From: Desulfuromonas sp. SDB
GTDB taxonomy: Bacteria; SDB-A
Reading direction: 5' to 3'
NCBI GenBank assembly: GCA_001412365.1
Contig: LKUE01000281.1
Span: 1-18,934 of the forward strand
Length of the DNA: 18,934 nt
Positions 3,923 to 18,857 of this stretch are shown piece by piece (the first letter of the stretch is position 1; every line of letters begins with the position of its first letter). Under the pieces are notes generated by a model. It searched no databases and had not been told where the DNA came from. It saw nothing but the letters and a program-made list of their open reading frames with translations. Both the position numbers and the translations under genes were made by a program.

Positions 3923-3924
3923 TA

Positions 3925-4464
3925 ATGAACTGTTCTTGTAATCAGCGGGGATATTTTCAGGTTTACACCGGGGACGGGAAAGGTAAAACCACTGCCGCTT
4001 TAGGTCTGGCTATAAGAGCAGCAGGGGCAGGCAAACAAGTCTATGTGGGACAGTTCATGAAAGGGAAAAAGTATTCCGAACATATTATTTTAGACCGGCT
4101 AAACGACCATATCACCTATGAACTGTACGGAACTGCTGAACTAATTCATGTTAAACACAAACCCGATCAACAAAATATTCAATGTGCAAGAAATGGATAT
4201 GATCAGGCAAAGCAGGCTATCCAATCCTCTAACTATGATGTGATCATACTAGATGAAATTAATATCACCGTTTACTTTAAGCTGCTTAAGGTAGAAGATT
4301 TAATAGAATTGGTAAAACTTCGTTCACCTGATCAGGAATTGATTTTTACCGGACGCAAAGCACCTGAACAGATAATTGAACTTGCAGATTTAGTTACTGA
4401 AATGAAAGAGGTTAAGCATTATTACCGGAAGGGGATTACTGCCCGGGAAGGTATAGAACATTGA
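3925..4464 (+). CDS. cobO: Cob(I)yrinic acid a,c-diamide adenosyltransferase (CobO/BtuR type)
   Basis: This 179-residue ATP-dependent corrinoid adenosyltransferase transfers the 5'-deoxyadenosyl group of ATP to Co(I) corrinoids, making the coenzyme form of B12. The P-loop 'GDGKGKTT' (residues 16-23) followed by 'AALGLAIRAAGAG', the acidic strand 'DVIILDEIN' (Walker B-like), 'IFTGRKAP' and the C-terminal 'HYYRKGITAREGIE' are diagnostic of this family rather than of PduO or EutT. It begins 2 nt after glgA and overlaps the next gene by 4 nt. Its place before an ABC importer suggests that imported corrinoid is adenosylated directly. Only salvage genes are visible here, with no de novo corrin-ring genes. 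Confidence 0.93.
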   Translation: MNCSCNQRGYFQVYTGDGKGKTTAALGLAIRAAGAGKQVYVGQFMKGKKYSEHIILDRLNDHITYELYGTAELIHVKHKPDQQNIQCARNGYDQAKQAIQSSNYDVIILDEINITVYFKLLKVEDLIELVKLRSPDQELIFTGRKAPEQIIELADLVTEMKEVKHYYRKGITAREGIEH

Positions 4465-5354
4465 ACCGTACTCAGAAATTGTTCTTGATCTCTGCAATAG
4501 CGGGATTGATTACCGGAATTATTTTAAAAACTTTTCTCCGCTCCGGCTATGTTCCCTCAGATACAGCACCTCAGAGAATTATCAGCATTGGACCAAATAT
4601 AACTGAAATCATCTATGCCCTGGGGCAGCAGCATAAGCTGGTGGGAGTGGATGACTTTTCCCGCTATCCTTCCCCCGCGGAATTAATTCCCCGGGTGGGA
4701 GGAGTGATTAATCCGAATTTAGAGAAGATAATATCTCTGCAGCCGGATATTGTTTTTTTATCCGGCAACTCCCAGAAAATAAAGGAATTTTGCAACGATC
4801 ACAGTATCCAGTGCATTGGATACGAATTCACTGACCTTAAATCCGTATTTTACTCAATACAAGATATGGGAAAATTGATGGATGCTCAATCTCAAGCAGA
4901 TACTTTGTTAAATTTATTAAAAGCCAGTTTTGACTCAATTCAACTAAGCAGTATTTCCAGGGATATCACCGTGCTGACAGTTATTCCGTATCAACAGGAT
5001 TTGACTAAGTTCATGACCACTTCCGGCAATTCGTTTATAGGAGAAATCATTGAATTGGCGGGAGGAGAAAATGTCATCGGAAATCAAGCGGTAATATTTC
5101 CTGAAATTTCTCAGGAAGCAGTTCTGCTGAGTGATCCCCAGCTAATTTTAATTTTAGCTTCACCATTATCCCCGGACTCCGCTGATTCAGCGGATTTAGT
5201 AAAGCAATGGATAGATCTTTATCCTCAAAGCACCGCCACTAAAAATAACCAGATTTATATTTTAAGCGATGATTACCTGTTAATCCCAGGTCCCCGGATT
5301 ATTTTAATAGCCCAAAGAATTGATGAAATCTTCGAAAATTATTCTAAACATTGA
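4461..5354 (+). CDS. btuF: Periplasmic corrinoid/metal-chelate binding protein (BtuF-like)
   Basis: This 297-residue helical-backbone (class III) substrate-binding protein has the family opening 'RIISIGPNITEIIYALGQ', then 'LVGVDDFSRYP' and 'NLEKIISLQPDIVFLSG'. It captures cobalamin or a related chelate and passes it to the permease. Residues 7-25 are hydrophobic with no lipobox Cys, so the protein is probably held by an uncleaved signal anchor or is simply secreted. The start is TTG, overlapping the cobO stop (TTGA); GGAAGG at 4446-4451 is a well-spaced Shine-Dalgarno. Cobalamin is preferred over ferric siderophore only because cobO is adjacent and overlapping. Confidence 0.85.
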   Translation: MNRTQKLFLISAIAGLITGIILKTFLRSGYVPSDTAPQRIISIGPNITEIIYALGQQHKLVGVDDFSRYPSPAELIPRVGGVINPNLEKIISLQPDIVFLSGNSQKIKEFCNDHSIQCIGYEFTDLKSVFYSIQDMGKLMDAQSQADTLLNLLKASFDSIQLSSISRDITVLTVIPYQQDLTKFMTTSGNSFIGEIIELAGGENVIGNQAVIFPEISQEAVLLSDPQLILILASPLSPDSADSADLVKQWIDLYPQSTATKNNQIYILSDDYLLIPGPRIILIAQRIDEIFENYSKH

Positions 5355-6105
5355 AAATCTCTGGTTTAAATATCCAGCAGGATTTGAAATCAGAGAAATT
5401 AATTTTAAGGTCGTAGAAGGGACCTTTAATTGCCTGATTGGTCCCAATGGTTCAGGTAAAACCACTCTGTTGAAACTACTGGGGGGAATTTTAATTCCCG
5501 CCCGGGGAAAGATTAAAATTAATAGTAAAGATTTATCTTCCCTCAGTTTAAAGCAAAAAGCACACCAATTAGCTTATATTCCTCAATTTTTTCAGTCAAA
5601 TTTACCTTTTACCGTTGAACAGATAATTTCCATGGGCAGGTATCCCCACCTCAGAGGGTGGGGTTTTTTAGATAAGCAGGATCATCACATAATTTTCCAA
5701 AACATGGAATTGTTGAAAATTACTCACTTGCTGGGACGTTATTTCAACTCCTTAAGCGGAGGAGAAAAACAAAAAGTACTAATTGCCACCGCTCTAACTC
5801 AGTGTTCAAATCTACTGTTATTAGACGAACCAGCCTCTTCGCTGGATATTCACTTCCGCAATGAGATTTATTCAATTTTAAAAGATCTCACCGGACATAA
5901 TTCAACCGTGGTAATGGTCAGCCATGATCTTTCTCTGGCTTCTCTTTACAGTGATAAGTTGATCTTACTGGATCAAGGAAGATTATCTGCCCAAGGCAGT
6001 TCATCCCAGGTTATTGACCAGGAAAATTTAGTTAAAGTATTCAACCGGGGATTTAAAATAATATGGTCAGAACAAAAACCACTGGTAATACCTCAGAAGA
6101 TTTAA
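5323..6105 (+). CDS. btuD: ABC transporter ATPase (BtuD/FecE-like)
   Basis: This 260-residue ATP-binding subunit energises the corrinoid or chelate importer at the inner face of the membrane. Counting from the ATG, it has Walker A 'GPNGSGKTT' (40-48), a Q-loop Gln near 88, signature 'LSGGEKQ' (144-150), Walker B 'LLLLDEP' (164-170) and the switch His in 'SHD' (200-202). All catalytic positions are intact. The gene overlaps the end of btuF by 32 nt. A TTG three bases upstream (5320) is an alternative start; neither has a strong Shine-Dalgarno, so coupling to btuF is likely. Substrate is inferred from neighbours only. Confidence 0.9.
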   Translation: MKSSKIILNIENLWFKYPAGFEIREINFKVVEGTFNCLIGPNGSGKTTLLKLLGGILIPARGKIKINSKDLSSLSLKQKAHQLAYIPQFFQSNLPFTVEQIISMGRYPHLRGWGFLDKQDHHIIFQNMELLKITHLLGRYFNSLSGGEKQKVLIATALTQCSNLLLLDEPASSLDIHFRNEIYSILKDLTGHNSTVVMVSHDLSLASLYSDKLILLDQGRLSAQGSSSQVIDQENLVKVFNRGFKIIWSEQKPLVIPQKI

Positions 6106-7091
6106 CCGGCATTATCAGCAAAAAGAAGATTGTTATCAATATAGCCATCCACTCCATGCTGGCAGTGGCGGTTTTAATTATCGCACCCTGGTTCGGTTCA
6201 GAGAACTTCACCTTTTCCAAATTTTCTGCTCAAAATGAAGTTTTTAAACTCCTGCTTTCCTACCGCCTGGCCAGGGTAACAATCGCCTTTCTGCTGGGAG
6301 GGGTACTTTCCTTGTCAGGAACCCTTCTTCAGGCTACCTTGAAAAATCCCTTGATTGAACCTTACACCTTAGGAATCAGCAGCAGCTCAGCGCTGGGAGC
6401 ATTTATAGGAATAACTTTTTTCAGCTTCATACCCTGGTCAGGATTCAGTTTATCAATATTGATCTCAGTATTTATAATATTTACAGTGTACAGATTATCT
6501 CAAAGATTCGGAGGTTTTTCAGTTTACACCTTGATTCTTGCCGGTATAACCATCAGTATTTTCTCTGCTTCTTTAATATCTCTATTGAGATATATATTAA
6601 ATCCTCTAACTGCCAACTTATTGGACCGATGGTTAATTGGTTCATTGATTACCGCTTCCTGGAAAGATTTCTGGATATTACTGTGCTTTTCAATTCCCCT
6701 GATATTGTGGGGAGGATACTTTGCCAATGACTACAATCAGCTTTACTTTCAAACTGAAGTCAGCAAATCCAGAGGACTGAATGTAGAATGGCTTCAGAAA
6801 ATAACTTTTCTAATTGTTTCCATAGCCATCGCCGGTTCAGTATCCCTGTTTGGACCGATTGCCTTTGTCGGATTGATTGTTCCCCATATTGAAAGAAAGA
6901 TTTCCGGATTTGATTACCGCATAGTTATACCGGCAACGTTTATATCAGGAGGAATATTGCTAACTTTATCCGATTTGATCAGCAGGACTATTTTAGCCCC
7001 TACCGAACTGCCGGTGGGTATAATTACCTCCTGTCTGGGGGCTCCATTCTTTTTATATCTTCTTTTTTGTAGAAAAGATTTGACAGATTGA
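6063..7091 (+). CDS. btuC: ABC transporter permease of the FecCD/BtuC family
   Basis: This 342-residue polytopic inner-membrane protein has many hydrophobic helices, as expected for the dimeric ten-helix BtuC fold. Hallmarks are 'GTLLQATLKNPLIEPYTLG' in the first third and 'FVGLIVPHIER' near the C-terminus. With the two genes before it, it completes an importer for cobalamin or a siderophore-like chelate. The ATG lies inside the ATPase gene (43-nt overlap), so the three transporter genes are strongly coupled. No outer-membrane TonB-dependent receptor gene (btuB) is near; it must be elsewhere. Confidence 0.9.
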   Translation: MVRTKTTGNTSEDLTGIISKKKIVINIAIHSMLAVAVLIIAPWFGSENFTFSKFSAQNEVFKLLLSYRLARVTIAFLLGGVLSLSGTLLQATLKNPLIEPYTLGISSSSALGAFIGITFFSFIPWSGFSLSILISVFIIFTVYRLSQRFGGFSVYTLILAGITISIFSASLISLLRYILNPLTANLLDRWLIGSLITASWKDFWILLCFSIPLILWGGYFANDYNQLYFQTEVSKSRGLNVEWLQKITFLIVSIAIAGSVSLFGPIAFVGLIVPHIERKISGFDYRIVIPATFISGGILLTLSDLISRTILAPTELPVGIITSCLGAPFFLYLLFCRKDLTD

Positions 7092-7108
7092 AGTTCTAAG
7101 TATAAATA
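7080..7108 (+). promoter_or_regulatory. Possible promoter of the EIIA/zinc-ribbon pair
   Basis: A perfect TTGACA (7080-7085) overlaps the end of btuC. TATAAA (7101-7106, 15-nt spacer) or TAAATA (7103-7108, 17-nt spacer) could serve as the -10. This would give the downstream pair its own transcript, although read-through from btuC is also possible because no terminator with a T tract separates them. Neither -10 choice is ideal. Confidence 0.35.
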
Positions 7109-7127
7109 ATTTTATATATTTAACTTA
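7097..7127 (+). other. AT-rich imperfect inverted repeat in the EIIA leader
   Basis: TAAGT-A-TAAATA (7097-7108) pairs with TATTTA-ACTTA (7117-7127), giving 11 pairs, one bulged A and an 8-nt loop. It is almost all A-T pairs and has no T tract after it, so it is not an intrinsic terminator. It overlaps the possible -10 and could be an operator or a weak leader hairpin. Chance is also reasonable in sequence this AT-rich. Confidence 0.25.
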
Positions 7128-7147
7128 TACAAGTAAAGGGATTAAGT

Positions 7148-7630
7148 ATCGTTAATCTTATAACTAAAGATAATATTAAGTTTAAACTATCTTGTTCTTC
7201 ATCAGGTGAAGTATATCTAGAATTATTAAAATTAATTAAAGCTGAACATATCAACAGCATTCGCGATTTTCTTATACACCGTGAAAATGAAAATCCCTTT
7301 GACATGGGCGGAGGCATTGCCTTTCCCCATGGAAGAATTAATCTTATTAAAACCCCCCTGGTAGCAGTAGGGCTTTCCCCTAAAAAAGGCATCCCCTTTC
7401 CCTCAAAATCAGGAAGCAGAAAGATTTCAACCTATCTTATTTTCATGCTTTTACTGCCATCATCAGACTATCCGGTCAATATTGCAGGTAAATCAAAGCA
7501 ATATATCAATGCCATATCTTCAGTAGCCAAATTTCTTAGAACAATCAAGAGTAAAAAGCTGGTAAAATCATTTAAATCAGAGCCGGATTTTCTTAACTTC
7601 GTAGAAAAATACTTGGAGGAAAATGGATAA
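7148..7630 (+). CDS. PTS EIIA-like protein (fructose/nitrogen type), apparent AUC start
   Basis: This is a phosphocarrier domain of the PTS EIIA-2 (PtsN/fructose) family. From 7148 the product has 160 residues. It opens 'VNLITKDNIKFKL' after the initiator and carries the phosphoacceptor motif 'GGGIAFPHGR' with His61, the normal place for this family. The first ATG (7304, residue 53) would delete the first strands and helices and leave only 8 residues before the His. The frame is open back to a TAA at 7121 but contains no ATG, GTG or TTG upstream of 7304. AAAGGG (7135-7140) lies 7 nt before ATC 7148, which I take as the start. No PTS permease or HPr is nearby, so a regulatory role is likely. 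The end overlaps the next gene by 8 nt. Confidence 0.75.
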   Translation: MVNLITKDNIKFKLSCSSSGEVYLELLKLIKAEHINSIRDFLIHRENENPFDMGGGIAFPHGRINLIKTPLVAVGLSPKKGIPFPSKSGSRKISTYLIFMLLLPSSDYPVNIAGKSKQYINAISSVAKFLRTIKSKKLVKSFKSEPDFLNFVEKYLEENG

Positions 7631-8012
7631 AAACTTAGAAATTCTGATCTCCATTGACAATCTTGAAACCTATATGGATGATCTAAACGATCAAAAGTAC
7701 ATAGATAAAATACAGGAACTGGGTATGACCATTGACACCAAAGCGCTAGCAAGTTTAGAAAAAACCAGGTCTGATTTATTAGATGAGTTAACTCCTAATT
7801 TAAAAAGAGAGTATCTGCGGTTAAAAAAATATTACCAGAATTCACCGATACCCCGGGCTATTGTGCCTATCCGATTTGAGCGGGGAGAAGGATTCTGCTT
7901 TGGCTGTTCTTCTAAAATACCTGCAGAAGTATTTCAAAGAGTAAAAAAATATCATACCATAGAAAGATGTGAGAACTGCGGCCGATTTATTTTTTGGCCT
8001 CCCCTACCCTGA
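7623..8012 (+). CDS. Small C4-type zinc-ribbon protein
   Basis: This 129-residue protein has a C-terminal zinc ribbon with ligands Cys92, Cys95, Cys116 and Cys119. The pattern CxxC...CxxCGR is close to that ending the C4-type zinc-ribbon (DUF164/CdsZ-like) proteins. Those usually carry a long N-terminal coiled coil of about 150 residues or more. Here the N-terminal part is only about 85 residues and its helices are short, so this is a minimal version. It overlaps the EIIA gene by 8 nt. The Shine-Dalgarno GGAGG (7615-7619) is only 3 nt from the ATG. It ends 1 nt from the convergent minus-strand operon. Function unknown; nucleic-acid or protein binding is plausible. Confidence 0.75.
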   Translation: MDKNLEILISIDNLETYMDDLNDQKYIDKIQELGMTIDTKALASLEKTRSDLLDELTPNLKREYLRLKKYYQNSPIPRAIVPIRFERGEGFCFGCSSKIPAEVFQRVKKYHTIERCENCGRFIFWPPLP

Positions 8013-8013
8013 A

Positions 8014-8976
8014 TTAAGGGGTAAGCCCAATTTTAAGCATGGGTTTATAGCCGATAACAGTTAAAATATCCTGCAGATCCATAATAATCAAAAAGCTGGT
8101 GTTTTTTCTTAATTTTACCAAATCAGAGAGATCTTTGGGAGAATAAGCCAATACTTCCACCAGGCAGCTGTCGGTAATAATCATGTCCACATATTGCTGT
8201 TGATCAAAAATTTCTCCCATTTCCCGGCTTTGAGCTTCAATAATCAGGGGATATCTGTCCTCTATCAAAAGAGAAAGTTTATAGGTCAGTTCCAACGGAG
8301 CTTGCATATAAAAAACTGCCCAGGATTGAGCAAGCTGTGAATTAAGGTAATCACTAGCCGGATCTACATAGTACTTCCGTTTAAATGCGCTTCTTAAAAA
8401 AGGATCATAACTCCATTCTATTCCTGGAACAGTAAGGTTAGTAATGATAATGCCGTCAGCAGGATAATTTTGATTAACCTGATCAATTAATTGCTGGGCT
8501 AATTTTTCCAGTCCCGGGGCAAGTGGAGAAATAAAATATCCACTTAAATTTTGTTGTTGCAGGTCATCCAGGGTAAATTCAATCATTCGCTCACCTCTGT
8601 TATTGGCGGCAAACCACTGGGGATGACTGTAAAAAACATGATTTGCATATACCGGAGGCGAACTAGACTGCCATACCTTGCATAAGGACAACCGTAAATA
8701 AAATTTTAAATTTAAACGTTGGCAGTGATAGGAAATTTCTTCCAAAGGGTCAAAACTGAACCCGGAGGGCAATTGATCCGAAGGGTAGTTGGCTATTCCC
8801 TGTTCATATAAATCCACCACTATCCCTGTAAATCCAATATCTCTGGCTTGTTGCAGATATGCGGGGATTGAATCTATTTGGAAGTAAGAGGTAGGATATA
8901 AAACTAATACTTCTCCTTCCAGCCCGGTAAGTCCTACCACTAAACTTACAAAAACTATCAGATAAAACTTAATCAC
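8014..8976 (-). CDS. Secreted TIM-barrel, glycoside-hydrolase-like protein
   Basis: This 320-residue protein has an N-terminal hydrophobic signal (about residues 3-18). The segments 'ARDIGFTGIVVDLYEQG', 'YHCQRLNLKFYLRLSL', 'HPQWFAANNRGER', 'YFISPLAPGLEKLAQQLI' and 'YPADGIIITNL' follow the layout of GHL10-like (YngK/DUF187-type) putative glycosidases: strand-helix units, then the 'hPeW...g' and 'dGihlD'-like strands. The Asp normally found in the last motif reads 'DGIIITN' here, so catalytic activity is uncertain. The start is GTG overlapping the previous stop (GTGA), so translation is coupled to the TonB-like gene. It is the last gene of the nine-gene operon and acts in the periplasm or outside. 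Confidence 0.65.
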   Translation of the reverse strand: MIKFYLIVFVSLVVGLTGLEGEVLVLYPTSYFQIDSIPAYLQQARDIGFTGIVVDLYEQGIANYPSDQLPSGFSFDPLEEISYHCQRLNLKFYLRLSLCKVWQSSSPPVYANHVFYSHPQWFAANNRGERMIEFTLDDLQQQNLSGYFISPLAPGLEKLAQQLIDQVNQNYPADGIIITNLTVPGIEWSYDPFLRSAFKRKYYVDPASDYLNSQLAQSWAVFYMQAPLELTYKLSLLIEDRYPLIIEAQSREMGEIFDQQQYVDMIITDSCLVEVLAYSPKDLSDLVKLRKNTSFLIIMDLQDILTVIGYKPMLKIGLTP

Positions 8977-10805
8977 TGACTGTAGAAATTAAATGGTACA
9001 GTAAAGGTGAAAGATCCTCCTCCCGCTTCAATCGCGGGGAACTGCCAAGTACCGATTGCCGCCAGCAACTGCTGCTCTAATCTCGGTGATCCCAAAGTAC
9101 TGCTTACCATGGATACACCGGTTATTCCACCACTTTCCGAAATGGTCAATCTGACTACAATTTTCCCCTGAATATTTGGATTAACTTCCAATTCTTTTTC
9201 ATAGTAGTATTTCAATCTTCCCTGATAGCGGACAATAGTTCTCCTAACATCGGCAGGATCTCTGGCTCCTGAAACTGCTGCTTCTCCGGATACCCCTGCT
9301 AAACTGCCTCCGCTCACTCCGGCAGTTCTTTGATGCTGAAGATCACCACCCACTGCTGGTCCCGTGGATATTTCACCTCCCCCGGTTACCCCTACTGTTC
9401 CGGTTACTCCTCCTCCCAATCCCCCAGTTCCGCCTGCTGCAGAAGCTGCTCCTCCGGAAACTCCGGAAAGGGAAGCTCCTCCTGCCAGCAAGTCCTGAAC
9501 ACTGGCGTCCCCACCTCCTAATCCTAATCCCACTGGACCGGTAGATGGCCCTGATGTTCCCACACCTAAAACTCTTAATCCTCTGGACACTCGGTCGGTA
9601 TTACCTGTTCCTACTCCTCCTCCCGCTCCTGCTCCGGATCCTCCCCCGCTTCCTCCGCCTGATCCTCCATCCCCCGAACCTTCTCCGCTTCCCTGATCGG
9701 ATTGACCCTGCCCCAGACCCAGGGTGCCTCTTCTCAGAGCTTCAATATCCTCACTTACGCTGACATCAATGATCTCGCTTTCCTGCAGTCTTCTTAGAGT
9801 TTCTTCAGCGGTACTCAGGGTAATTCCCTGGGCTTGGGCTCTCATAGTTAAGGTGTACAGAATCCAGAAAAACCAAAGGAGAACAGTCATCACATTGAAT
9901 AACATGTGTACGGTTTTATCCTTGGAATGTTCCCCCACGGTCATCCCATCATGAGGACGGGAATTAAATCTCTGCCAGTTAAAAATTGCTGGTTTAGGCG
10001 CTTGCTCCGGTTCCGGCTCAATTTTCTTCTCCTCTACTACTGCCTGCCCTTCTTCCCGGACTCCCAGGCGAATGATCATATCTGTCTGAAATTTCAGTTC
10101 CGCCCGATCACCCTTGCGCAGAAGAAATTTAACTTTTGAACGTCCTTTAAAACTAGCTTGATCAATTTTTTTCTGAACTTTATCGGTCATCAATATACCG
10201 GTAAAACCGGGAACTACAGTTAATACATAACCGTTGCGGAGACCTTCAAATAAATTTAATTTCTGCAGATAGGAATCTAAAATTAAAGTTTCATTGGTAG
10301 TATTGCCCACAGAAAATGATTCTCCCTGGGAAATCATAAATTTTCTGATTTTTCCACTTTGGATTACCTCAACCCAACCTACCACTGCTTTTTTGGGTAA
10401 TCCCGGGGCAGCCCGATGATACTGGGCGGAAACTTTCTGAAATCCGAATCCAATAACTGTTTTCCCAATTTCAATCCTTCCCCGGTTGGTGATCTCCAGG
10501 GGGATGACCAACACCGGTCCCTCCCGGCTAACTTTAACTTGATCGGCTAAATCTTCAAAGCGGTAAGGTTTATTTTTTATTCTTACCCATCCTTTGAACA
10601 AGGCAGGAATTATGCATAATTCATAGCATTTATCATTCTCATTAAATCTAAATAGTAGGTGCTGTTCAGGAATATTTGATTGAAATTCAGGAATAACAAT
10701 ATCCATCCCCGCTCTGGTCCCAATTTCCACCTTGTTTTTATCGGCAATAAAATGCCACTTTTTGCCCTGCTGCTGGACTACAATGCCCAATTTGATATTA
10801 TTCAT
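8973..10805 (-). CDS. TonB-like energy transducer with AgmX/PglI-type C-terminal domain
   Basis: This 610-residue protein bridges the inner membrane and periplasm. Residues 7-122 and 143-249 are two copies of a beta-rich, FHA-like module ('EIGTRAGMDIVIPE...HLLFRF' and 'SVGNTTNETLIL...LNLFEG'), predicted cytoplasmic. One membrane helix lies at about 302-321. A Gly/Ser-rich flexible linker (361-510) spans the periplasm. Residues 518-607 ('DVRRTIVRYQGRLKYYYEKEL', 'GKIVVRLTISESGGI', 'VSSTLGSP', 'TWQFPA') match the TonB-like domain of AgmX/PglI gliding proteins. The ATG at 10805 is chosen because AAGGGGG precedes it; the frame stays open upstream to an ATG at 10940, but that start would run into the exbD gene. 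It probably transmits ExbBD-driven force to the TPR and outer-membrane proteins, as GltG and GltJ do in Myxococcus. Confidence 0.85.
   Translation of the reverse strand: MNNIKLGIVVQQQGKKWHFIADKNKVEIGTRAGMDIVIPEFQSNIPEQHLLFRFNENDKCYELCIIPALFKGWVRIKNKPYRFEDLADQVKVSREGPVLVIPLEITNRGRIEIGKTVIGFGFQKVSAQYHRAAPGLPKKAVVGWVEVIQSGKIRKFMISQGESFSVGNTTNETLILDSYLQKLNLFEGLRNGYVLTVVPGFTGILMTDKVQKKIDQASFKGRSKVKFLLRKGDRAELKFQTDMIIRLGVREEGQAVVEEKKIEPEPEQAPKPAIFNWQRFNSRPHDGMTVGEHSKDKTVHMLFNVMTVLLWFFWILYTLTMRAQAQGITLSTAEETLRRLQESEIIDVSVSEDIEALRRGTLGLGQGQSDQGSGEGSGDGGSGGGSGGGSGAGAGGGVGTGNTDRVSRGLRVLGVGTSGPSTGPVGLGLGGGDASVQDLLAGGASLSGVSGGAASAAGGTGGLGGGVTGTVGVTGGGEISTGPAVGGDLQHQRTAGVSGGSLAGVSGEAAVSGARDPADVRRTIVRYQGRLKYYYEKELEVNPNIQGKIVVRLTISESGGITGVSMVSSTLGSPRLEQQLLAAIGTWQFPAIEAGGGSFTFTVPFNFYSQ
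9276..9725 (-). repeat. Low-complexity DNA coding the Gly/Ser-rich periplasmic linker
   Basis: About 450 bp inside the TonB-like gene code for a Gly/Ser/Ala/Val/Thr-rich segment with short GSGGGSGGG and GVSGG-type repeats. On the plus strand the DNA is pyrimidine-rich, with recurring CCTCC and CCGCC runs. This is richer in G+C than the flanking genes because of the Gly codons. Such a tract is prone to length changes by slippage. In the protein it should be an extended spacer reaching across the periplasm. Confidence 0.8.
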
Positions 10806-10846
10806 AATTCCCCCTTGATAAACTTTATAATTAAGATTGATTATTG

Positions 10847-11440
10847 CTAATATGAAGGCGCTAAAACCATTACTGAAACCTTTTTGTAACCAGCCATAGT
10901 ACAGGTATTGACGATTTGAGTTATTAAATTGTAGCTGCACAAACTGTCCGCCTGGATAATAATCCGAACTGAATCCGGATCTATCTGATTTATTTCTGCT
11001 GTTTGAACTGCGATTTCATAAGTCTCCCTCAATTTTTCCAGCAAATCAGGGATCATGGTGTCATTTTTTGCCGGCATCATCTGAGGATCTTCAATTATTG
11101 AGGATTGATCCAGGGTTATGGAATAATTGTTGGCGGTGATGACATTAACTCCTCCTTGAGGTTGCATTTCTCCTTCTTCACTAGCCACCAGGGGCAAACT
11201 GATATCCTCAGGAGGAGGGCTCTGATTAGGATCTGTAGAGTAGTTAAGCAATAAAAACACCAGAATAATTGTAAACATATCTATAAGAGAGGTAAGCTGC
11301 AATACCGGGGCTTCTCTTTTCTGATGAGGTCCCTTTCCCTGATTATTCACTTTAAGTGAAGATATGGAGCTTCTGAACATCATCTTCTTTTTGGAGGGAG
11401 GTTTGGGAAACCATTTAAATTCTTGCTTTTTTTCTTCCAT
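10847..11440 (-). CDS. ExbD/TolR-family proton-channel subunit (canonical Asp)
   Basis: This 197-residue inner-membrane protein has a basic cytoplasmic N-terminus of about 45 residues, one membrane helix at about 47-67 and a periplasmic domain ending 'VRIIIQADSLCSYNLI...AGYKKVSVMV', the typical ExbD/TolR fold. The key proton-binding Asp is present at position 54 in 'LTSLIDMFTIILVFLL'. It should pair with the ExbB-like protein two genes upstream to turn proton flow into movement of the TonB-like protein encoded next. AGAAGAGG upstream of the ATG serves as Shine-Dalgarno. The cytoplasmic N-terminal extension is longer than in ExbD of E. coli. Confidence 0.88.
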   Translation of the reverse strand: MEEKKQEFKWFPKPPSKKKMMFRSSISSLKVNNQGKGPHQKREAPVLQLTSLIDMFTIILVFLLLNYSTDPNQSPPPEDISLPLVASEEGEMQPQGGVNVITANNYSITLDQSSIIEDPQMMPAKNDTMIPDLLEKLRETYEIAVQTAEINQIDPDSVRIIIQADSLCSYNLITQIVNTCTMAGYKKVSVMVLAPSY

Positions 11441-11455
11441 ATTAAACCTCTTCTA

Positions 11456-12130
11456 TTACATTCCTCCCGGCCACCAGGGAGGCGGCTGGAGGTAATTATT
11501 TAAAAATCCGTTTCTCCGGGCAATCCTCATAAATTTAACCAGATCGTTTAAGGTGACTCCTTCTCCGCTAATCTGATCACCAATGCTGTCTACTGAAACC
11601 AGAACAAAAATATTCATTCTACTTACAATGCTGTCCAGAATTTGCTGATCTGGATTTTCAGCAATCACCCTTTTGATTTCTCTCCAATTACTCATCAGCA
11701 TTTCATCAGGTACAGTATCCAGAAATGACCTTACCTCTTCTGTAGCTAAATTATGAAGTGACTCCATCTTACCTGCTAATTGAGTGTCAATCTGATCCCA
11801 ACTGTTAAATAATTGAGTTTTAGGAATCAATGTATCCACTACAATTGATTCCCCCTGAATATGTTGATATCTGGAAAATTCGCAAACCATCCGATCATCG
11901 GATGTTTTAGCCATCACTATGGTCATAAAATAAGGAGGTGGAGACAGCAACTGTTCCCCTTCTACCGCACCCATTCCGGCTAATTCAAGATTTAATATTG
12001 CAGTTTGAACAATTTGAAAGCTGGTTAACAGAGCAGGAATTAAGATCATGAATAAATTTAAAATCGGAGTAACATTTACTCCCAGCTGACGAGATGATTT
12101 ACGGCCTGCTTTGGAAACTGCAAAAGACAT
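11456..12130 (-). CDS. ExbD/TolR-like protein with Asp replaced by Asn
   Basis: This 224-residue protein has the ExbD layout: a short basic N-terminus, one membrane helix (about 21-43) and a long periplasmic part with a Pro/Trp-rich end (PPPWWPGGM). The helix starts 'VNVTPILNLFMILI', which aligns with the family's 'TPLIDVVFLLL', but the proton-carrying Asp is Asn25 (codon AAT at 12056-12058). It therefore probably cannot carry protons itself and may be a structural partner of the Asp-bearing ExbD gene downstream, much as AglR and AglS are paired in Myxococcus. The gene begins 3 nt after the ExbB-like gene. Assignment rests on topology, position and the helix motif; the periplasmic domain is divergent. 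Confidence 0.75.
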   Translation of the reverse strand: MSFAVSKAGRKSSRQLGVNVTPILNLFMILIPALLTSFQIVQTAILNLELAGMGAVEGEQLLSPPPYFMTIVMAKTSDDRMVCEFSRYQHIQGESIVVDTLIPKTQLFNSWDQIDTQLAGKMESLHNLATEEVRSFLDTVPDEMLMSNWREIKRVIAENPDQQILDSIVSRMNIFVLVSVDSIGDQISGEGVTLNDLVKFMRIARRNGFLNNYLQPPPWWPGGM

Positions 12131-12133
12131 GAT

Positions 12134-12757
12134 TTATCCTTTCTTTATGTCTTGAAGCATGTTCATAATTTTTACTGCATATTCATCAATATCATCAACT
12201 ATTCCGTCTGCTTTTGCCTGGAGAAAGGCATGAAACAACATCACCGGAATAGCTACAGATAAGCCGAAAAAAGTAGTATTCAAGGCTACTGAAATACCTT
12301 TAATTAATTCCATTGTCCTGGTGGAAGCACTGGCGGTTAGCAAAGCGGCAAATGACTTCAACAAACCGGCAATGGTCCCCAGCAATCCCAACAAAGTTGC
12401 CACCTGAGAAAGTACCGGGAGGTAATTTAAACGTTGGTTAATGCGGGGAATTTCAGCTAGTCCTACCTCGTCCACTGCATTTTGCATTTCTCTGATGTCA
12501 TCTTTGTAATTTCTCAAACCTGCACCAATTATTTTTGACAGAGGTTTTCCAATTGAATCGCAATATCTTATAGCGCCGTTATAGTCTCCTTCTCTTAACT
12601 TTTTAGTTATAGTTCTCAGAAAGCTTTCCGGATTCATACTGGATTTAAATAAAAAGAAAAATCTTTCTCCAATCAGTGCTAAAGATACAAGAGCAGTCAA
12701 TGATATAAAATGCATGGCCCATCCACCACTTTTGTAAAACTGGATGAAACTCGCCAC
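12134..12757 (-). CDS. MotA/TolQ/ExbB-family proton channel protein
   Basis: This 207-residue inner-membrane protein has three membrane helices, at about 14-36, 112-138 and 155-180. The family core 'LPVLSQVATLLGLLGTIAGLLKSF' and 'ISVALNTTFFGLSVAIP' is intact, with the conserved pore threonines at about 128 and 161-162. It forms the pentameric channel around the ExbD helices and supplies proton-motive energy to the TonB-like protein. AglQ is the counterpart in the Myxococcus gliding motor. The start is GTG, fixed by a strong AAGGAGG (12764-12770) 6 nt upstream. Spacing to the next gene is 3 nt. Confidence 0.95.
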   Translation of the reverse strand: MASFIQFYKSGGWAMHFISLTALVSLALIGERFFFLFKSSMNPESFLRTITKKLREGDYNGAIRYCDSIGKPLSKIIGAGLRNYKDDIREMQNAVDEVGLAEIPRINQRLNYLPVLSQVATLLGLLGTIAGLLKSFAALLTASASTRTMELIKGISVALNTTFFGLSVAIPVMLFHAFLQAKADGIVDDIDEYAVKIMNMLQDIKKG

Positions 12758-12778
12758 GTTTAACCTCCTTTACTTAGA

Positions 12779-13210
12779 TTACTTTCCAGATAGGTATAAT
12801 ATTCCAGAAATTAACAACAATACTCCTCCCGAGCTCAATACAACCACTCCGCTTTTTTCATTCTGATAAATCAGATAACCGCCTACCGCAGAAGTAGCTC
12901 CGCCTAACAGAGCAGTGGTTTTAGAATAAGGGTGATAAACCCGGTTGACTCCTAATCTTCCTAAATCCCCTCTAGTAATGAAAACTTGATCTAATATTTC
13001 ATCTGAAAAACTTCTGGATATGATAAAGCTCGAAAAATCAATACGAGCTGTTGCCGCAATGTTAATTACTAAAGGTTCTCTGGCTGTACCCATAATTTCA
13101 ATTTCTTCAATTTGCAAAACATTTCCCGAGGGATCTTGCAAATCCTGTGCATGCAAAGATGCAGTTAGTGATACCCATAACAATATATACATAAATAATT
13201 TAATATTCAT
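12779..13210 (-). CDS. Small secreted protein with hydrophobic C-terminal segments
   Basis: I do not recognise this 143-residue protein. It has a clear signal peptide with a likely cut after 'SLHA' (about residue 21). A beta-prone middle region contains 'ITRGDLGRLGVNRVYHPYSKT', and two Gly/Leu/Val-rich hydrophobic stretches fill about residues 97-142. Those stretches could be membrane hairpins or strands in the outer membrane. An ATG one codon earlier (13213) is possible, but AGGGGG (13215-13220) is only 1 nt from it and 4 nt from the chosen ATG. It lies between the large TPR gene and the ExbB-like gene, so it is probably a part of the same machine. Confidence 0.7.
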   Translation of the reverse strand: MNIKLFMYILLWVSLTASLHAQDLQDPSGNVLQIEEIEIMGTAREPLVINIAATARIDFSSFIISRSFSDEILDQVFITRGDLGRLGVNRVYHPYSKTTALLGGATSAVGGYLIYQNEKSGVVVLSSGGVLLLISGILYLSGK

Positions 13211-13218
13211 CATTCCCC

Positions 13219-16149
13219 CTATGGATTATCCATGGTTTCCGTACTATCCAAAGGTACTTCAGTGGAGTCTGAAACCAGAGTGGAATCAGTTTGGACCGGT
13301 GTGGTATCCATTATAACTTCCTCCGGAAATAAATCTGGTCTGAATATTTTTAAATTTTCAATAGCTTCCAGTGTCTTCCGATACCAGGAGCTGCCGGTTA
13401 AATCATTTTCTTCAGCATTACGAACGGCTGCCTGGTAAAATTGTGCAGCCACCTCTTCATAAGGCAAAGCCTGCATCTCCAGTTCTTCCTGAAAAAATAT
13501 TTGTTCTTCTTCGGACCAGCTGGGGTCATATTCAGCTTCTCTAAATGCCCTGGCGTAATCTTCATTGCACTGCCCCAGTAAATAAAGAGCTCCGATGGTC
13601 ACCTCTCCTGATTTTAATCCGGCAATCTTAGTCAAATAGCCGGCAATTTCCTTCATTTCCGCATCATAGGGGGGGAAAGAAGAATTAATCGGCCAGTTGA
13701 GAATAGTACCCTTGACATTTTTGAAATTCCAGTCGGCAACCTTCAACATATCTTCATCAATGTCCCCCGGAGAAATACCAGCTGCTTGACCTCCAGAAAA
13801 ATAATCTTGTAAAATTTGTTCCCGGGCATTCATCGCATCCGCATGCAGTCCTAAACTGTCCAGAGCAGCAGCTAATCTATGGAGAGCTTCATAATGGGCT
13901 GCTTCGGAAAATGAAGTATTATTAGCCACTATTTCAAAAGATTGACGGGCTTGCAGATAATCTCCTGCCCCTAGATAAGCTCGTCCTGACCAAAGATATG
14001 CTTCCCTGCCTTCCCTGGTTTCCGGATATCGTGCAGTTATATCTTCAAGCGCCACTGCTGCTTCTCTCCACAGTTGAGGGGAGGGATTACCTTCTTGCTG
14101 AGCTTGCTCCGCCAAGGTCAAGGAGATGTTGGCAATATTCAGATAGGCAGAATAAACCAGACTGTCCTCCTGATAGTCGTAGTGACTGACAAACTGTCTG
14201 AATATTTCTAAAGCTCTCCGCTCTTCTCCCGCATTATTGAAAATCACCCCTGCATTGAACAATGCTTTCTTACCTTCTTCCCTATCCCCATAATTATGAA
14301 AAACTTCGATATATGAAACTGCTTTTAATGTATCATCATCAGACTGGTCGGAAGCTGATTCAAATGCAATTAACGCTGCCTGTTTAGTTAAACTTGTGTC
14401 TCCTCCCACTTCGGCAGCCCGGTTAAACCACAGTTCCGCCTCGGCTAAATTTCCCAACTGGTAATTACACTGAGCAATCATTACTGCCGCTGAAGGCACT
14501 GCGGGAGATATTGAAAATCTGTCAATAACCTGACGATACCAGGTTTCTGCTTGTGAGTACTGTCCTGATTCATACAAAACTTTACCCGTAGCCATGCACA
14601 CTCCTACTGGTTCGGAAAGTGAATCCCCCGGGTATTCATCCCAAATTTCAATATACCTGGAAGCTGCATTCACAATACTGTCAATGCGTTCAGTATTAGT
14701 TGTATCTAAGCCATGCCAGGAATTATAGGAAGTTACCGCTTCATAAGCAGCAGCCAGCTTTAAGGTGTCATTAGAAGGGTCAACAGCAACCTGGGTGTAC
14801 TGGTATCCTGCGGACTGGTAATTTTGCAGCTCATACAAAGCTTCAGCCAGGGCAAATCGAATCCCATAGGATTCAGGATCATCAGGATATTTTTCTAAAA
14901 AATTCTGATATCTGTCCGCAGTAGTCCTCCATTCCTCCGGAGTGCCTTGTTGTAATGCTCTGCTGTGATGAACTCCTGCAGTGAACAGCATTGCTTCCCG
15001 GATTAATGAATCAGTTGCCCTGGATTGTTCAGAAACCCCGGCACTGTCTCCCATCGCTAATTCTTCCCATCCCGATCCGTATGATTCAACCAGTCTATCC
15101 ATAGAAGCTTCCGCCATCTCCACATCCCCCACTTCTGCATACAGAGCAGCCATATCCCTTAAAATAAAGGGCGCTTGGGAATGATTGGGATACATATTTA
15201 GAAAGGTCTGATAGGTAGTGATGGCATTGGCGTAATCAATTTTATCTTTATAAGTCTCCGCCAGCTGAATTAACAATTCGGGTCCCTGGGGCAATTCTCC
15301 AATTTGATTTAATACTATCTGCATACGCATAGGACCATTGTCAAACTCGGAAAAATTAAATCCCAGATACATCATCGCCTCGTCCGCCAGTTGAGTACCT
15401 CCTTCCTGCTGAGCCAACTCCAGTAAGTAAAGAAAATAGGTGGTGGAGGCAATTAAACTGTCTTCTCCGGCTAAACGGTTCAGCCAGCCAATCATATAAA
15501 TTGCTTTATCGTAGTTGGGATCAGTGGGGTAATCCATAACCCGGTTGAAATAATCCAAAGCCAAATCAACCTTACCCAGCCCCTCATGACGGAAATTGAA
15601 ATAATACAATCCCAGTCTGAAACAGGAGGCGGGAACCCGGTCACTTTGAGGGAATCTTTCTACCAGCAGCCGGTATAAAATGCTTGCGGAATCTACACTG
15701 CCTTCCTCTTCCAGCACTGAAGCTAAAATGTAATAGGCATCAGCTGCAGCGAAAGTGTCCAATCCTTCGTATTCCGTTATCACCCTCAAGTACATCTGCT
15801 TTGCTTTGGAATAATCAGCAATAGGTTCCTGTCCAGGAATCATTCCCGCATCTTCCCACTGGTGCATGGCAATTTCAAACTGGTTTTTAGCCTGGACCCG
15901 GTAAAGTTCACCTAACCTCAATGCAGCATCTGCCCCAAAAGGATTGAAAGTATAAGTGTTCAGCAAATTTTCAAGGTAATTTATGGAAGAATTCACATAT
16001 TCTTCCTGTAATTCTTCTAACTGTGCTTCTTCACTCTCTAAAACCATCAATTCTTTCTCCGGACTCATCTCCCTTCTAAAACTGCAATTTGCCTGGATTA
16101 AACTAACCAGCAAACCAAATAATATTAATATGAAAAAATCTCTTTTCAA
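13219..16149 (-). CDS. Large secreted TPR-repeat protein
   Basis: This 976-residue protein has an N-terminal signal (residues 4-20) and Cys22. The context 'QANC' is not a good lipobox, so lipidation is doubtful. Most of the length is tandem TPR-like helical pairs, for example 'ADAYYILASVLEEEGSVDSASILYRLLVERFPQS' type units spaced through about 60-900. The composition is acidic. The C-terminal tail (about 945-976) is Ser/Thr/Asp/Pro rich and probably disordered. It should be a periplasmic scaffold joining outer-membrane and inner-membrane parts, like the large TPR proteins of the Glt system. The start is TTG, directly after the previous stop codon, with AGGA 8 nt upstream. A later ATG would lose the signal peptide. 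Confidence 0.85.
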   Translation of the reverse strand: MKRDFFILILFGLLVSLIQANCSFRREMSPEKELMVLESEEAQLEELQEEYVNSSINYLENLLNTYTFNPFGADAALRLGELYRVQAKNQFEIAMHQWEDAGMIPGQEPIADYSKAKQMYLRVITEYEGLDTFAAADAYYILASVLEEEGSVDSASILYRLLVERFPQSDRVPASCFRLGLYYFNFRHEGLGKVDLALDYFNRVMDYPTDPNYDKAIYMIGWLNRLAGEDSLIASTTYFLYLLELAQQEGGTQLADEAMMYLGFNFSEFDNGPMRMQIVLNQIGELPQGPELLIQLAETYKDKIDYANAITTYQTFLNMYPNHSQAPFILRDMAALYAEVGDVEMAEASMDRLVESYGSGWEELAMGDSAGVSEQSRATDSLIREAMLFTAGVHHSRALQQGTPEEWRTTADRYQNFLEKYPDDPESYGIRFALAEALYELQNYQSAGYQYTQVAVDPSNDTLKLAAAYEAVTSYNSWHGLDTTNTERIDSIVNAASRYIEIWDEYPGDSLSEPVGVCMATGKVLYESGQYSQAETWYRQVIDRFSISPAVPSAAVMIAQCNYQLGNLAEAELWFNRAAEVGGDTSLTKQAALIAFESASDQSDDDTLKAVSYIEVFHNYGDREEGKKALFNAGVIFNNAGEERRALEIFRQFVSHYDYQEDSLVYSAYLNIANISLTLAEQAQQEGNPSPQLWREAAVALEDITARYPETREGREAYLWSGRAYLGAGDYLQARQSFEIVANNTSFSEAAHYEALHRLAAALDSLGLHADAMNAREQILQDYFSGGQAAGISPGDIDEDMLKVADWNFKNVKGTILNWPINSSFPPYDAEMKEIAGYLTKIAGLKSGEVTIGALYLLGQCNEDYARAFREAEYDPSWSEEEQIFFQEELEMQALPYEEVAAQFYQAAVRNAEENDLTGSSWYRKTLEAIENLKIFRPDLFPEEVIMDTTPVQTDSTLVSDSTEVPLDSTETMDNP

Positions 16150-17796
16150 TTATTGTTCCTGTAATTCCGGTCCATTAATATTTTGCAGAGAATCCTGCTG
16201 GGCTTGCAATTCATAGCGAATTTCTGCCTGCCTCAATCTAACCTCAGATAATCTTCTTTCGATATCTTTGTATCTCATGAAATGAGATATCCCTGCACCA
16301 TATTCAGCCTGCATCAGCCAGTCGGTTATGGTGGAAAGGTTTTCCTCTGCCCCCACTTCATTTTCGATATCCGCCAAAATTAATGAAAGACTGGTCAATT
16401 CATTTTTTATATTATCTAAAAGATCAGCCTGGGAAGGTGGCAACCTTCTTTGAAGATAATTAATTTCCACCAGCATGTCTTCCACCCTAGCTCTTTCATC
16501 ATTGAGATTAACCAAGATACTTCCCCTCAATAATGCCAGATCCAATGAACCTTTCCGGTAAGCCTGGAGACCAATGGATCTCAGGGCATCCTGCTGCAGC
16601 TGGATACCTTCTCCGATTTTTTCCAAACTATCCGCTACCTCATACCGCCCTTCTAATCTGGCTTTTAAGGTCATTTCCCTGATCGTATCCAGAAGTTCCT
16701 GAGTAACCTGGAGATCTTCAGAAATCATTCCGCTGATGGGTTCCCGGGATTGGCCGATTTCAATATCTCTGATGTCAACAATGTATCCATAATCTTCCAA
16801 TATATTATTGTAAATGGCAAAGGTCTTGTCATATTCACCTTTTTGAAGATAGGCTGCCGCTCTGGCTAATTCGATATCTGTTCTCAAATCCTCTTCAATG
16901 GTATGTCTGAATCTTAAGTGATCAAGCAGGTCCAAGCCTTCATCTACCAGTCCCACCCTCAGATAAAGCCATACAATACCTAAATCTACTACATCCGGAT
17001 CAGCTCCTTTTGCTTTAGCCAGATTGTAATATTCATAAGCCTCCGTATATTTTTCCTGTTCGTACAACAGTTGAGCTAAAGTAATGTAAACTTTACCCTT
17101 CCAGTGTTCGGGAATTAAATTGGCATAAGGGCCAAACAGCATATTATTTAGTTCTTCTCTGGCTTTTTCCACCCCTTGTTCATTCATATTTTCCTGATAA
17201 TAGGAAACTGCATTTAGATAAAGGGAAAAAGCAAATTGAGGAGAATTTGGAGATACTTTGGAAGCCATATCCCTGCAACTCTGAAATTGAGCCAGAGAAA
17301 AATGACTTAATGCCAAAACCATATTAACATTATCAATAAATTCACTAAGCGGATATTCGTAAATAAATTGATTGCCCCGGTTGATACATTCATTAAATCT
17401 TCCCTGTTGATAGCCGATAACCAGATACATGTACAGAGCTCTTTCCTTTAAGCTGTCCGGCGTGGCAAAATACTCGTAAACATTTAAATAAGTGAATTTT
17501 GCCCAACCAATTGCCCCTTTTAAATACAATTGATCAGCAGCCTGAATAAAGGGGGGAGAAACCATAGCCATTCTCATCTCGTCAATTTCGTCGTGGAGAT
17601 TTTCCAGCACTCCCTGCTCCACTTGAATTTGCCTTCTCAGGGAATCGCTTCGCTGTCTTATTTCGTCATCGGATAATTGGTAAAAATTTTGCTGATTGTT
17701 CCGGGGAAGTTGATCGGTGCTGTCCACAACTTCCTGAGCATAAACAGATATACACAGTAAAATTAATCCGGTAAACAAAACTAATATATTTTTCAT
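16150..17796 (-). CDS. Secreted TPR and coiled-coil protein
   Basis: This 548-residue protein has a signal peptide cut after 'SVYA' (about residue 20). A coiled coil at about 42-78 ('DSLRRQIQVEQGVLENLHDE') follows, then TPR-like repeats over about 85-350 such as 'GKVYITLAQLLYEQEKYTEAYEYYNLAKAKG'. More charged helical and coiled-coil segments run to a Gln-rich end. It looks like a periplasmic scaffold that works with the larger TPR protein encoded immediately downstream with no gap. The Shine-Dalgarno is weak (AGAAG about 10 nt upstream). No catalytic motif was seen. Precise family unknown. Confidence 0.82.
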   Translation of the reverse strand: MKNILVLFTGLILLCISVYAQEVVDSTDQLPRNNQQNFYQLSDDEIRQRSDSLRRQIQVEQGVLENLHDEIDEMRMAMVSPPFIQAADQLYLKGAIGWAKFTYLNVYEYFATPDSLKERALYMYLVIGYQQGRFNECINRGNQFIYEYPLSEFIDNVNMVLALSHFSLAQFQSCRDMASKVSPNSPQFAFSLYLNAVSYYQENMNEQGVEKAREELNNMLFGPYANLIPEHWKGKVYITLAQLLYEQEKYTEAYEYYNLAKAKGADPDVVDLGIVWLYLRVGLVDEGLDLLDHLRFRHTIEEDLRTDIELARAAAYLQKGEYDKTFAIYNNILEDYGYIVDIRDIEIGQSREPISGMISEDLQVTQELLDTIREMTLKARLEGRYEVADSLEKIGEGIQLQQDALRSIGLQAYRKGSLDLALLRGSILVNLNDERARVEDMLVEINYLQRRLPPSQADLLDNIKNELTSLSLILADIENEVGAEENLSTITDWLMQAEYGAGISHFMRYKDIERRLSEVRLRQAEIRYELQAQQDSLQNINGPELQEQ

Positions 17797-17830
17797 TTTT
17801 CAACACTTCTGACTAAATTATCTAATCAGA

Positions 17831-18763
17831 TTATCCTCCGCTTTGTTCGAGGATTCGACGCAATCTTCTCAGTTCTTCCTCCGCCTCTTCTCTTCTCCTT
17901 CTAATTTCTTCTAATTCTTCTTCATAACTTCTCATAATTTCAAATTCTCTCTGTCTCCTCTGCTGGATTTCCGCTCCGAAAAATGGTCCGTAAGTCAATC
18001 TAAATCCTAACTGAATTTTCTGCTGTTCGGTGGGGACATTACGATGGACGTAATTTACCCCAAAGGTCTGCTCAATTTCAGTCCAGGCGAACATAACTTC
18101 CCAATTGTAAGTCACCCGGTAAACAGCTCCCAGGTTCCAGTCTTTACCATCTATATCCGAAATCACCTTAAGATTGCGGATTGGTCTTATCTCTACACCG
18201 GTGAAAATCCCATGCCAGGGTTCTGATCTTTCCCTTTCTCCTTGAAATCTTCCGGTGCCAATGCCCAGGGTCAAGGTTACCGGTATACTGGGAAAGATAT
18301 AACTTAAATCTTTGGAAATTACTCCGTACATGGAAAAATTTTGAGCAATTTTATAATAAGTCATGGAATTTTTTCCATATTGAGACAAACGCTTGTAAGG
18401 AGATATATTCTGTATGCCAATTGCTACCGCGGGTAGGGTCCCGCTTTCCCTTAACAATCTTATCTTTCCAAAACCACTCCACACATCTGTTCCTAAAAAG
18501 GCAAAACCCAGCTCCACCCAATTCAGCAATCCAATTTTAAGATCAGCTCCGAAAGTGTATTTGGGAAAGGTTTTAAATTCCTGTTGAGTTAGCAGGTGAT
18601 CCTGATTATACAAACTTACTGCAGAACTAAACTGAATATAGGAATTAGGGAGGATGTAGGCATTGGGAATCTCAATTTCATTTCCCTGGATAAATGGTCC
18701 GGAATATAAAATAGCAGGGACAATAACTAGTAATAATATTTGCAGATACTTTTTCCCCCTCAT
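17831..18763 (-). CDS. Predicted outer-membrane beta-barrel protein with coiled-coil tail
   Basis: This 310-residue protein has a signal peptide (about 1-21). Alternating hydrophobic strands bounded by aromatic residues fill about 30-265, for example 'TFGADLKIGLLNWVELGFAF', 'VTLTLGIGTGRF' and 'WEVMFAWTEIEQTFGVNYV'. This is the pattern of an outer-membrane barrel of roughly 10-14 strands. The last 40 residues (about 270-310) are a highly charged Glu/Arg helix of coiled-coil type, which would lie in the periplasm. It is the first gene of the operon, with AGGAGG (18769-18774) 5 nt before the ATG. By position it parallels the GltA/GltB barrels, but I see no specific homology that I can name. Confidence 0.78.
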   Translation of the reverse strand: MRGKKYLQILLLVIVPAILYSGPFIQGNEIEIPNAYILPNSYIQFSSAVSLYNQDHLLTQQEFKTFPKYTFGADLKIGLLNWVELGFAFLGTDVWSGFGKIRLLRESGTLPAVAIGIQNISPYKRLSQYGKNSMTYYKIAQNFSMYGVISKDLSYIFPSIPVTLTLGIGTGRFQGERERSEPWHGIFTGVEIRPIRNLKVISDIDGKDWNLGAVYRVTYNWEVMFAWTEIEQTFGVNYVHRNVPTEQQKIQLGFRLTYGPFFGAEIQQRRQREFEIMRSYEEELEEIRRRREEAEEELRRLRRILEQSGG

Positions 18764-18828
18764 AAAAACCTCCTATATAAATTAACCATGTATTTCCTGG
18801 TTTGATGTTTATATTTATGACAAGGAAT

Positions 18829-18857
18829 ATTATAAATTAATAACCATTATAATTCAA
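18829..18857 (-). promoter_or_regulatory. Promoter of the nine-gene minus-strand operon
   Basis: On the minus strand TTGAAT (18852-18857) and a perfect TATAAT (18829-18834) are separated by exactly 17 bases, a strong sigma-70-like match. The -10 is about 65 nt before the first start codon. No terminator-like hairpin and no gap above 41 nt occur in the nine genes that follow, so one transcript of about 10.8 kb is likely. The rest of 18858-18934 is AT-rich and shows no gene. Confidence 0.65.

Follow-up and report, generated by a model that had tools for sequence, protein, structure and literature searches.

The nine minus-strand genes that fill positions 8014-18763 of the window (the whole 18,934-nt contig analyzed here, part of a 3.14 Mb assembly that is 98.7% complete) probably encode, with a likelihood that we put at about 0.8, a self-contained core complex of the Glt/Nfs type, i.e., a proton-driven, envelope-spanning machine that would pull a surface adhesin or polymer. 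Judged from sequence, the operon is of the Agl-Glt/Nfs core complex kind delineated by Luciano et al. in 2011 in non-gliding bacteria (PMC3169522). As shown by comparisons of the individual proteins, its ExbB is of the AglR kind, its two ExbDs are the counterparts of AglQ and AglS, its TonB-like protein is GltG-like and its small exported protein GltF-like. The resemblance to Agl-Glt/Nfs proposed in the preliminary description is hence one of true homology, as seen in the AglR clade, the GltG-type transducer, the GltF-type small protein and a GltD-like TPR protein. Counting against this explanation are the absence of GltE, a GltG match below the equivalog cut-off and a weak single-sequence match to GltF; moreover, a literature search turned up no experiment on an integrated core cluster.

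Operon organization and relationship to known core complexes

In the order of transcription, the genes are separated by 34, 0, 5, 21, 3, 15, 41 and -4 nt, if the TonB-like gene is taken to start at the ATG at 10805, which has a ribosome site, rather than at the longest-ORF start at 10940. The open reading frames and gaps bear out the nine co-directional minus-strand genes with spacings of -4 to 41 nt reported previously. The sampled family comprises four genomes (candidate division WOR-3), and the three relatives also have all nine genes in this order and orientation, at 28-86% identity to those of the window; the retention of order and co-orientation in three relatives at such identities excludes chance. 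The single promoter proposed earlier corresponds to a promoter-like site (TTGAAT-17-TATAAT, 18829..18857, minus strand, 10/12 consensus match) just upstream of the first gene, but matches of this quality number no more than expected by chance (48 observed versus 48.5 in shuffled sequences), and it is its position alone that is suggestive of a promoter role. Rfam and tRNA scans were empty. The plus strand at 2465-8012 of the window carries glgA, a cobO-type gene, btuF/D/C-type uptake genes, a short EIIA-like frame and a zinc-ribbon gene, all convergent with the nine-gene operon and partly conserved beside it.

The order TPR-F-ExbB-ExbD-ExbD-TonB, where F is the small gene, is seen in dozens of fetched clusters, and clusters of the window-operon kind occur in at least 27 sampled families. 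A profile of the small protein matches 59 of 386 sampled genomes (51 of 327 genera), while missing some clusters found otherwise, e.g., those of G010 and G055. According to the 2011 study, self-contained core operons exist outside myxobacteria in gamma-, beta- and some deltaproteobacteria and in Fibrobacter (PMC3169522). Thus, the earlier suggestion of a self-contained operon outside Myxococcus stands as regards the self-contained core and its conserved order, but overstated the novelty of a kind known since 2011. Like the window genes, the core complex described there (Group B gltC, gltD, gltE and gltG together with aglR, aglQ and aglS) is encoded in a single operon, which comprises an ExbB of the AglR type, a pair of ExbDs, a transducer of the GltG type, a TPR protein resembling GltD and one additional gene. 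The window operon differs in lacking GltE, in adding a predicted barrel gene and a glycosidase-like gene, in lying outside the 2011 taxa, in the Asn of its AglQ-type subunit and in its GltF-like small gene. In the operon, no match to the GltE TPR lipoprotein was recovered, and the gap between the second TPR gene and the small gene is only 5 nt.

The Agl-Glt gliding and Agl-Nfs spore-coat machines of Myxococcus xanthus share with the window operon the motor and transducer families, TPR proteins and a GltF-type small protein. In M. xanthus, however, the motor is encoded apart and is common to the two systems, each ExbD has its Asp, and the machinery includes GltA/B/H/I/J/K in addition; no operon protein matches NF033755 (CglE/GltH), a model which is matched in L056 of our reference genome, G031. 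This genome is presumed from its gene content to be a myxobacterium, because the matches of L056 to GltE, CglF, GltG and CglE follow the gene order of the M. xanthus G1 cluster (PMC3169522), and because its locus L124 is an ExbB-ExbD-ExbD set with ExbD lengths of 162 and 194, as in AglQ and AglS. The GTPase MglA, earlier described as missing, is indeed absent from the contig, but is encoded on contig C198 of the same genome. There (L123:4320-5481), unlinked to the operon, it has a Roadblock-like (MglB-type) protein directly upstream.

The ExbB subunit and the two ExbDs

The predicted motor comprises an AglR-type ring subunit, ExbB (207 aa, 12134..12757, minus strand; MotA_ExbB, 9.5e-25), and two axle subunits encoded on the same strand: the AglQ-type ExbD1 (224 aa, 11456..12130), in which Asn replaces the proton-carrying Asp (TPIL[N]LFMILIPALL), and the AglS-type ExbD2 (197 aa, 10847..11440; ExbD, 2.9e-12), which has the Asp (TSLI[D]MFTIILVFLL). 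ExbD1 has no Pfam match, and its membership in the ExbD family comes from an iterated profile (4.1e-17); with these three matches the ExbB and two ExbD-like proteins of the preliminary description are confirmed. In a 55-row tree, the window-family ExbB belongs to a 19-row clade (support 100/99) that comprises AglR (L124), the M2 AglR and the core-cluster ExbBs, with L125 among its members; TolQ and ExbB of Escherichia coli fall outside it, as do the ExbBs linked to receptors in the window family.

This placement bears on two alternative readings. The first, that the genes constitute an ordinary TonB-ExbB-ExbD set powering import through TonB-dependent receptors, would accommodate the TonB_C, ExbB and ExbD domains, the three Plug-domain receptors in the genome, the convergent btuFDC-type uptake operon, and the cellodextrin import which the authors of the Fibrobacter proteome proposed for matching genes (PMC6851124). 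We nevertheless consider it quite improbable: the ExbB lies outside the Ton/Tol groups of the tree, the transducer is of the AgmX/PglI type with an FHA-like cytosolic domain, and neither the operon nor the rest of the contig, which ends 171 nt upstream of the first gene with its farther side unseen, encodes a receptor. A search for pairing with ordinary TonB receptors, the possibility that the preliminary description had set against its own proposal, found none linked, and the C274 receptor is accompanied by an ExbB-ExbD-ExbD set of its own, with Asp in both ExbDs. In view of the missing linked receptor and the position of the ExbB outside the Ton group, membership in an ordinary Ton system was rejected. 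The locus on contig C274 (L121; also L139 and L140) consists of the Plug-domain receptor followed by ExbB-ExbD-ExbD, with a further ExbB a few genes on. The second alternative, a Tol-Pal-like system for outer-membrane constriction and integrity, could draw on the TolQ matches of the ExbB and the YbgF/CpoB matches of a TPR protein. It is highly improbable and was likewise rejected, since TolQ sits in another clade than the operon ExbB and the operon lacks TolB and Pal; further, the genome encodes another ExbB-ExbD pair, on C146, which in the tree joins the TolQ/ExbB side.

Returning to the Glt/Nfs-type motor, a quick tree of ExbDs separates the first ExbDs, AglQ included, from the second ExbDs, AglS included (99 SH-aLRT). 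Across 43 integrated clusters from 27 families, the position of E. coli ExbD Asp25, which is equivalent to AglQ Asp28, is occupied in the first ExbD by Asn in 38, Ser in three and Asp in two, as against Asp in the second ExbD of all 43. Seven residues further on, the first ExbD has a Pro in 41 of the 43. As the set includes four loci found by an ExbD1 query and four of the window family, the counts were also taken with these eight removed (Asn 30, Ser 3, Asp 2). By contrast, five motors that have no TonB gene downstream, including AglRQS and M2 of G031, carry Asp in both ExbDs, though one of them, L138, is at a contig end, so that the gene following it is unseen, and another, L195, follows a TonB gene. 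Counted by family, Asn/Ser versus Asp is 26 to 1 among integrated clusters and 0 to 4 among the rest (Fisher 1.6e-4, ancestry ignored).

In the well-studied 5:2 motors, Asp is found on both axle subunits. An Asn-only homodimer would be unable to carry protons by the known route, which leaves pairing of the two ExbDs or a different role for ExbD1. The D28N substitution in AglQ paralyzes the M. xanthus motor (PMC3858216), and a 2022 review states the question of AglQ/AglS hetero- versus homodimers to be open (PMC9389320); the conserved Asn in the first ExbD bears on pairing of this type. A literature search found no report of a natural Asn in the first ExbD, nor was a mention of Asn in the AglQ-type subunit found in the portions of PMC3169522 considered.

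Transducer, small protein and outer-envelope components

The 610-aa transducer (8973..10805, minus strand) combines an FHA-like and a second β-domain with a TM segment at about 298-321, its one TM helix, a Gly-rich periplasmic arm and an AgmX/PglI TonB end. It matches TonB_C at 8e-7 and the AgmX/PglI-end model NF033768 at 8.2e-24, in agreement with the AgmX/PglI-type TonB recognized earlier, and NF033760 (GltG) at 3.5e-21 with 75 bits, which is below the 650-bit equivalog cut-off. Its structural model has two N-terminal β-domains (mean pLDDT 63), the first of which is similar to FHA domains (Z up to 9.3, rmsd 2.8 over 97 residues). A second AgmX/PglI-type TonB protein, stand-alone and conserved in the family (G000:C332, L047:3860-5425; also L049, L050 and L051), adjoins RecJ and a Cu-oxidase_4 gene.

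The small exported protein (144 aa, 12779..13213, minus strand), encoded directly 5' of ExbB, carries a motif common to GltF/CglF and the small proteins directly 5' of ExbB elsewhere. Its single-sequence match to GltF is weak, and no match to NF033764 is listed for it. Among 3,568 ORFs, a profile of the core small proteins alone recovers the GltF of G031 at 3e-6 and its paralogue at 4e-16, and with a profile of the window family alone the F-position proteins of other clusters rank next after the family itself. According to PMC3169522, GltF occurs only in Myxococcales and Bdellovibrio, and the extra core gene has no homologues in myxobacteria; the profile matches suggest that GltF and this extra gene form one family. 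Profile-profile comparison (hhalign) recovered the TonB end and the TM region of ExbD1, the small protein weakly and the barrel not at all, and multi-member profiles later resolved the small-protein and barrel relationships thus left weak or unmatched.

The first gene (310 aa, 17831..18763, minus strand) encodes a predicted outer-membrane β-barrel with a signal-like N-terminus and a C-terminal charged helix. The barrel named in the preliminary description stays a prediction: the AlphaFold model, from a two-sequence alignment, is of low confidence overall (mean pLDDT 34), though it has only strands (10-12) besides a confident C-terminal helix. Homologues are the first genes of core clusters in G242 (5.7e-55) and G370 (2.3e-51), and the gene recurs in other families; similarity to YjbH is weak and below the cut-off. 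Searched by sequence against the PDB, the TonB-like protein and the predicted barrel returned low-complexity or chance matches only.

TPR domains were found in both long proteins, as described before. The exported TPR protein 1 (548 aa, 16150..17796, minus strand) is likened to GltC by position plus general TPR similarity only. TPR protein 2 (976 aa, 13219..16149, minus strand) is GltD-like: a profile built from its own family finds the protein in the GltD position of L056 (7.3e-23) and the counterparts in core clusters (up to 3e-60), scores which TPR repeats inflate, and YbgF-type TPRs are present in all of these alike. The two proteins are fused into one of about 1,500 aa at L194:2565-7073 and L200:7505-12037, and the gene in first position in these clusters is clearly homologous to the barrel gene of the window.

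The last gene (320 aa, 8014..8976, minus strand), which overlaps the end of the TonB gene by 4 nt, encodes an exported protein for which the earlier label of glycosidase-like is kept on account of GHL6/GHL10 matches, but these are weak. It is retained in the four family genomes and was not found in the other clusters surveyed. A GHL10 paralogue (G000:C345, L048:1438-3042) lies near a short TonB-end protein.

Proposed mechanism and a possible connection to type IX secretion

The AglR protein of M. xanthus is a binding partner of GltG, and the Glt/Nfs complexes are moved by the flow of protons through AglQ, with the motor using GltG to act on an envelope chain, whether in gliding or in carriage of the spore-coat polymer (PMC3858216, PMC3169522). 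In the window operon, an ExbB pentamer would surround an ExbD1/ExbD2 heterodimer with a proton-binding Asp on ExbD2 only, and proton flow would work on the GltG-like protein. The periplasmic end of the latter could then pull on a chain made up of the small GltF-like protein, both TPR proteins and the putative outer-membrane barrel. This chain would retain or drag along an adhesin or polymer bound at the surface, which the type IX system of these genomes perhaps exports. Regulatory input might come through the cytosolic FHA-like domains. The operon has no adhesin or polymer gene beside it, and polymer export or motility would be a possible role; Luciano et al. thought the core alone unlikely to drive gliding (PMC3169522). 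A comparable gene order is seen in Fibrobacter succinogenes, where FSU_2396-2403, raised on cellulose, run OmpA-TPR-TPR-(2399)-ExbB-ExbD-ExbD-TonB, and the OmpA and first TPR proteins occur in an outer-membrane complex with cellulases (PMC6851124). The window operon is likened to it by gene order, i.e., an outer-membrane protein, two TPR proteins, one gene, ExbB, two ExbDs and TonB, but the first Fibrobacter protein is of the OmpA family and its authors read the motor part as TonB-dependent uptake.

The genomes of the window family encode SprA and 48-130 type IX secretion system (T9SS) tails each, with no match over the cut-off for GldL or GldM. The GldLM/PorLM motor of T9SS is similarly a proton-driven 5:2-type machine acting on surface adhesins or secretion, but its subunits differ from those of the window motor, and identity of the operon with GldLM was rejected for want of a GldL or GldM match over the cut-off in the family. 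Across the 386 sampled genomes, SprA exceeds the cut-off in 90 and GldM in three, two of these with SprA; most sampled genomes with the SprA translocon thus seem to be without GldM. If GltE is counted as present wherever the GltD-like and small genes lie more than 600 nt apart, integrated clusters without GltE are found in 14 families, all SprA-positive (E up to 1e-10), and in no SprA-negative genome, whereas those with GltE are found in 10 SprA-negative and two SprA-positive families (p 1.2e-5 by family). No genome with a GltE-less cluster has a recognizable GldM.

These distributions are what would be expected were the operon the T9SS motor of bacteria that have SprA but not GldL/GldM, with the Glt core energizing T9SS export or moving T9SS adhesins. 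This reading is on the whole unlikely: the SprA association could be explained by shared ancestry, GldL and GldM may be too diverged for the models used, the genome has other ExbB sets, and no T9SS gene is recognized beside the operon. Equally speculative, and rather doubtful, is the broader proposition of a widespread class which both has an obligate ExbD1(Asn)/ExbD2(Asp) axle with a single proton site and powers T9SS secretion or adhesin movement in the T9SS phyla without GldLM.

Neither the natural loss of Asp in the first ExbD nor the link to genomes with type IX secretion figured in the preliminary description. The presence of Glt/Nfs-type core clusters in at least 27 families, together with a GltE-less variant found solely in genomes that bear SprA, makes this look like a general envelope machine and not a myxobacterial curiosity. 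A further question is what powers type IX secretion in genomes that seem to be without GldLM, and a natural one-Asp axle, if true, would test current models of rotation.
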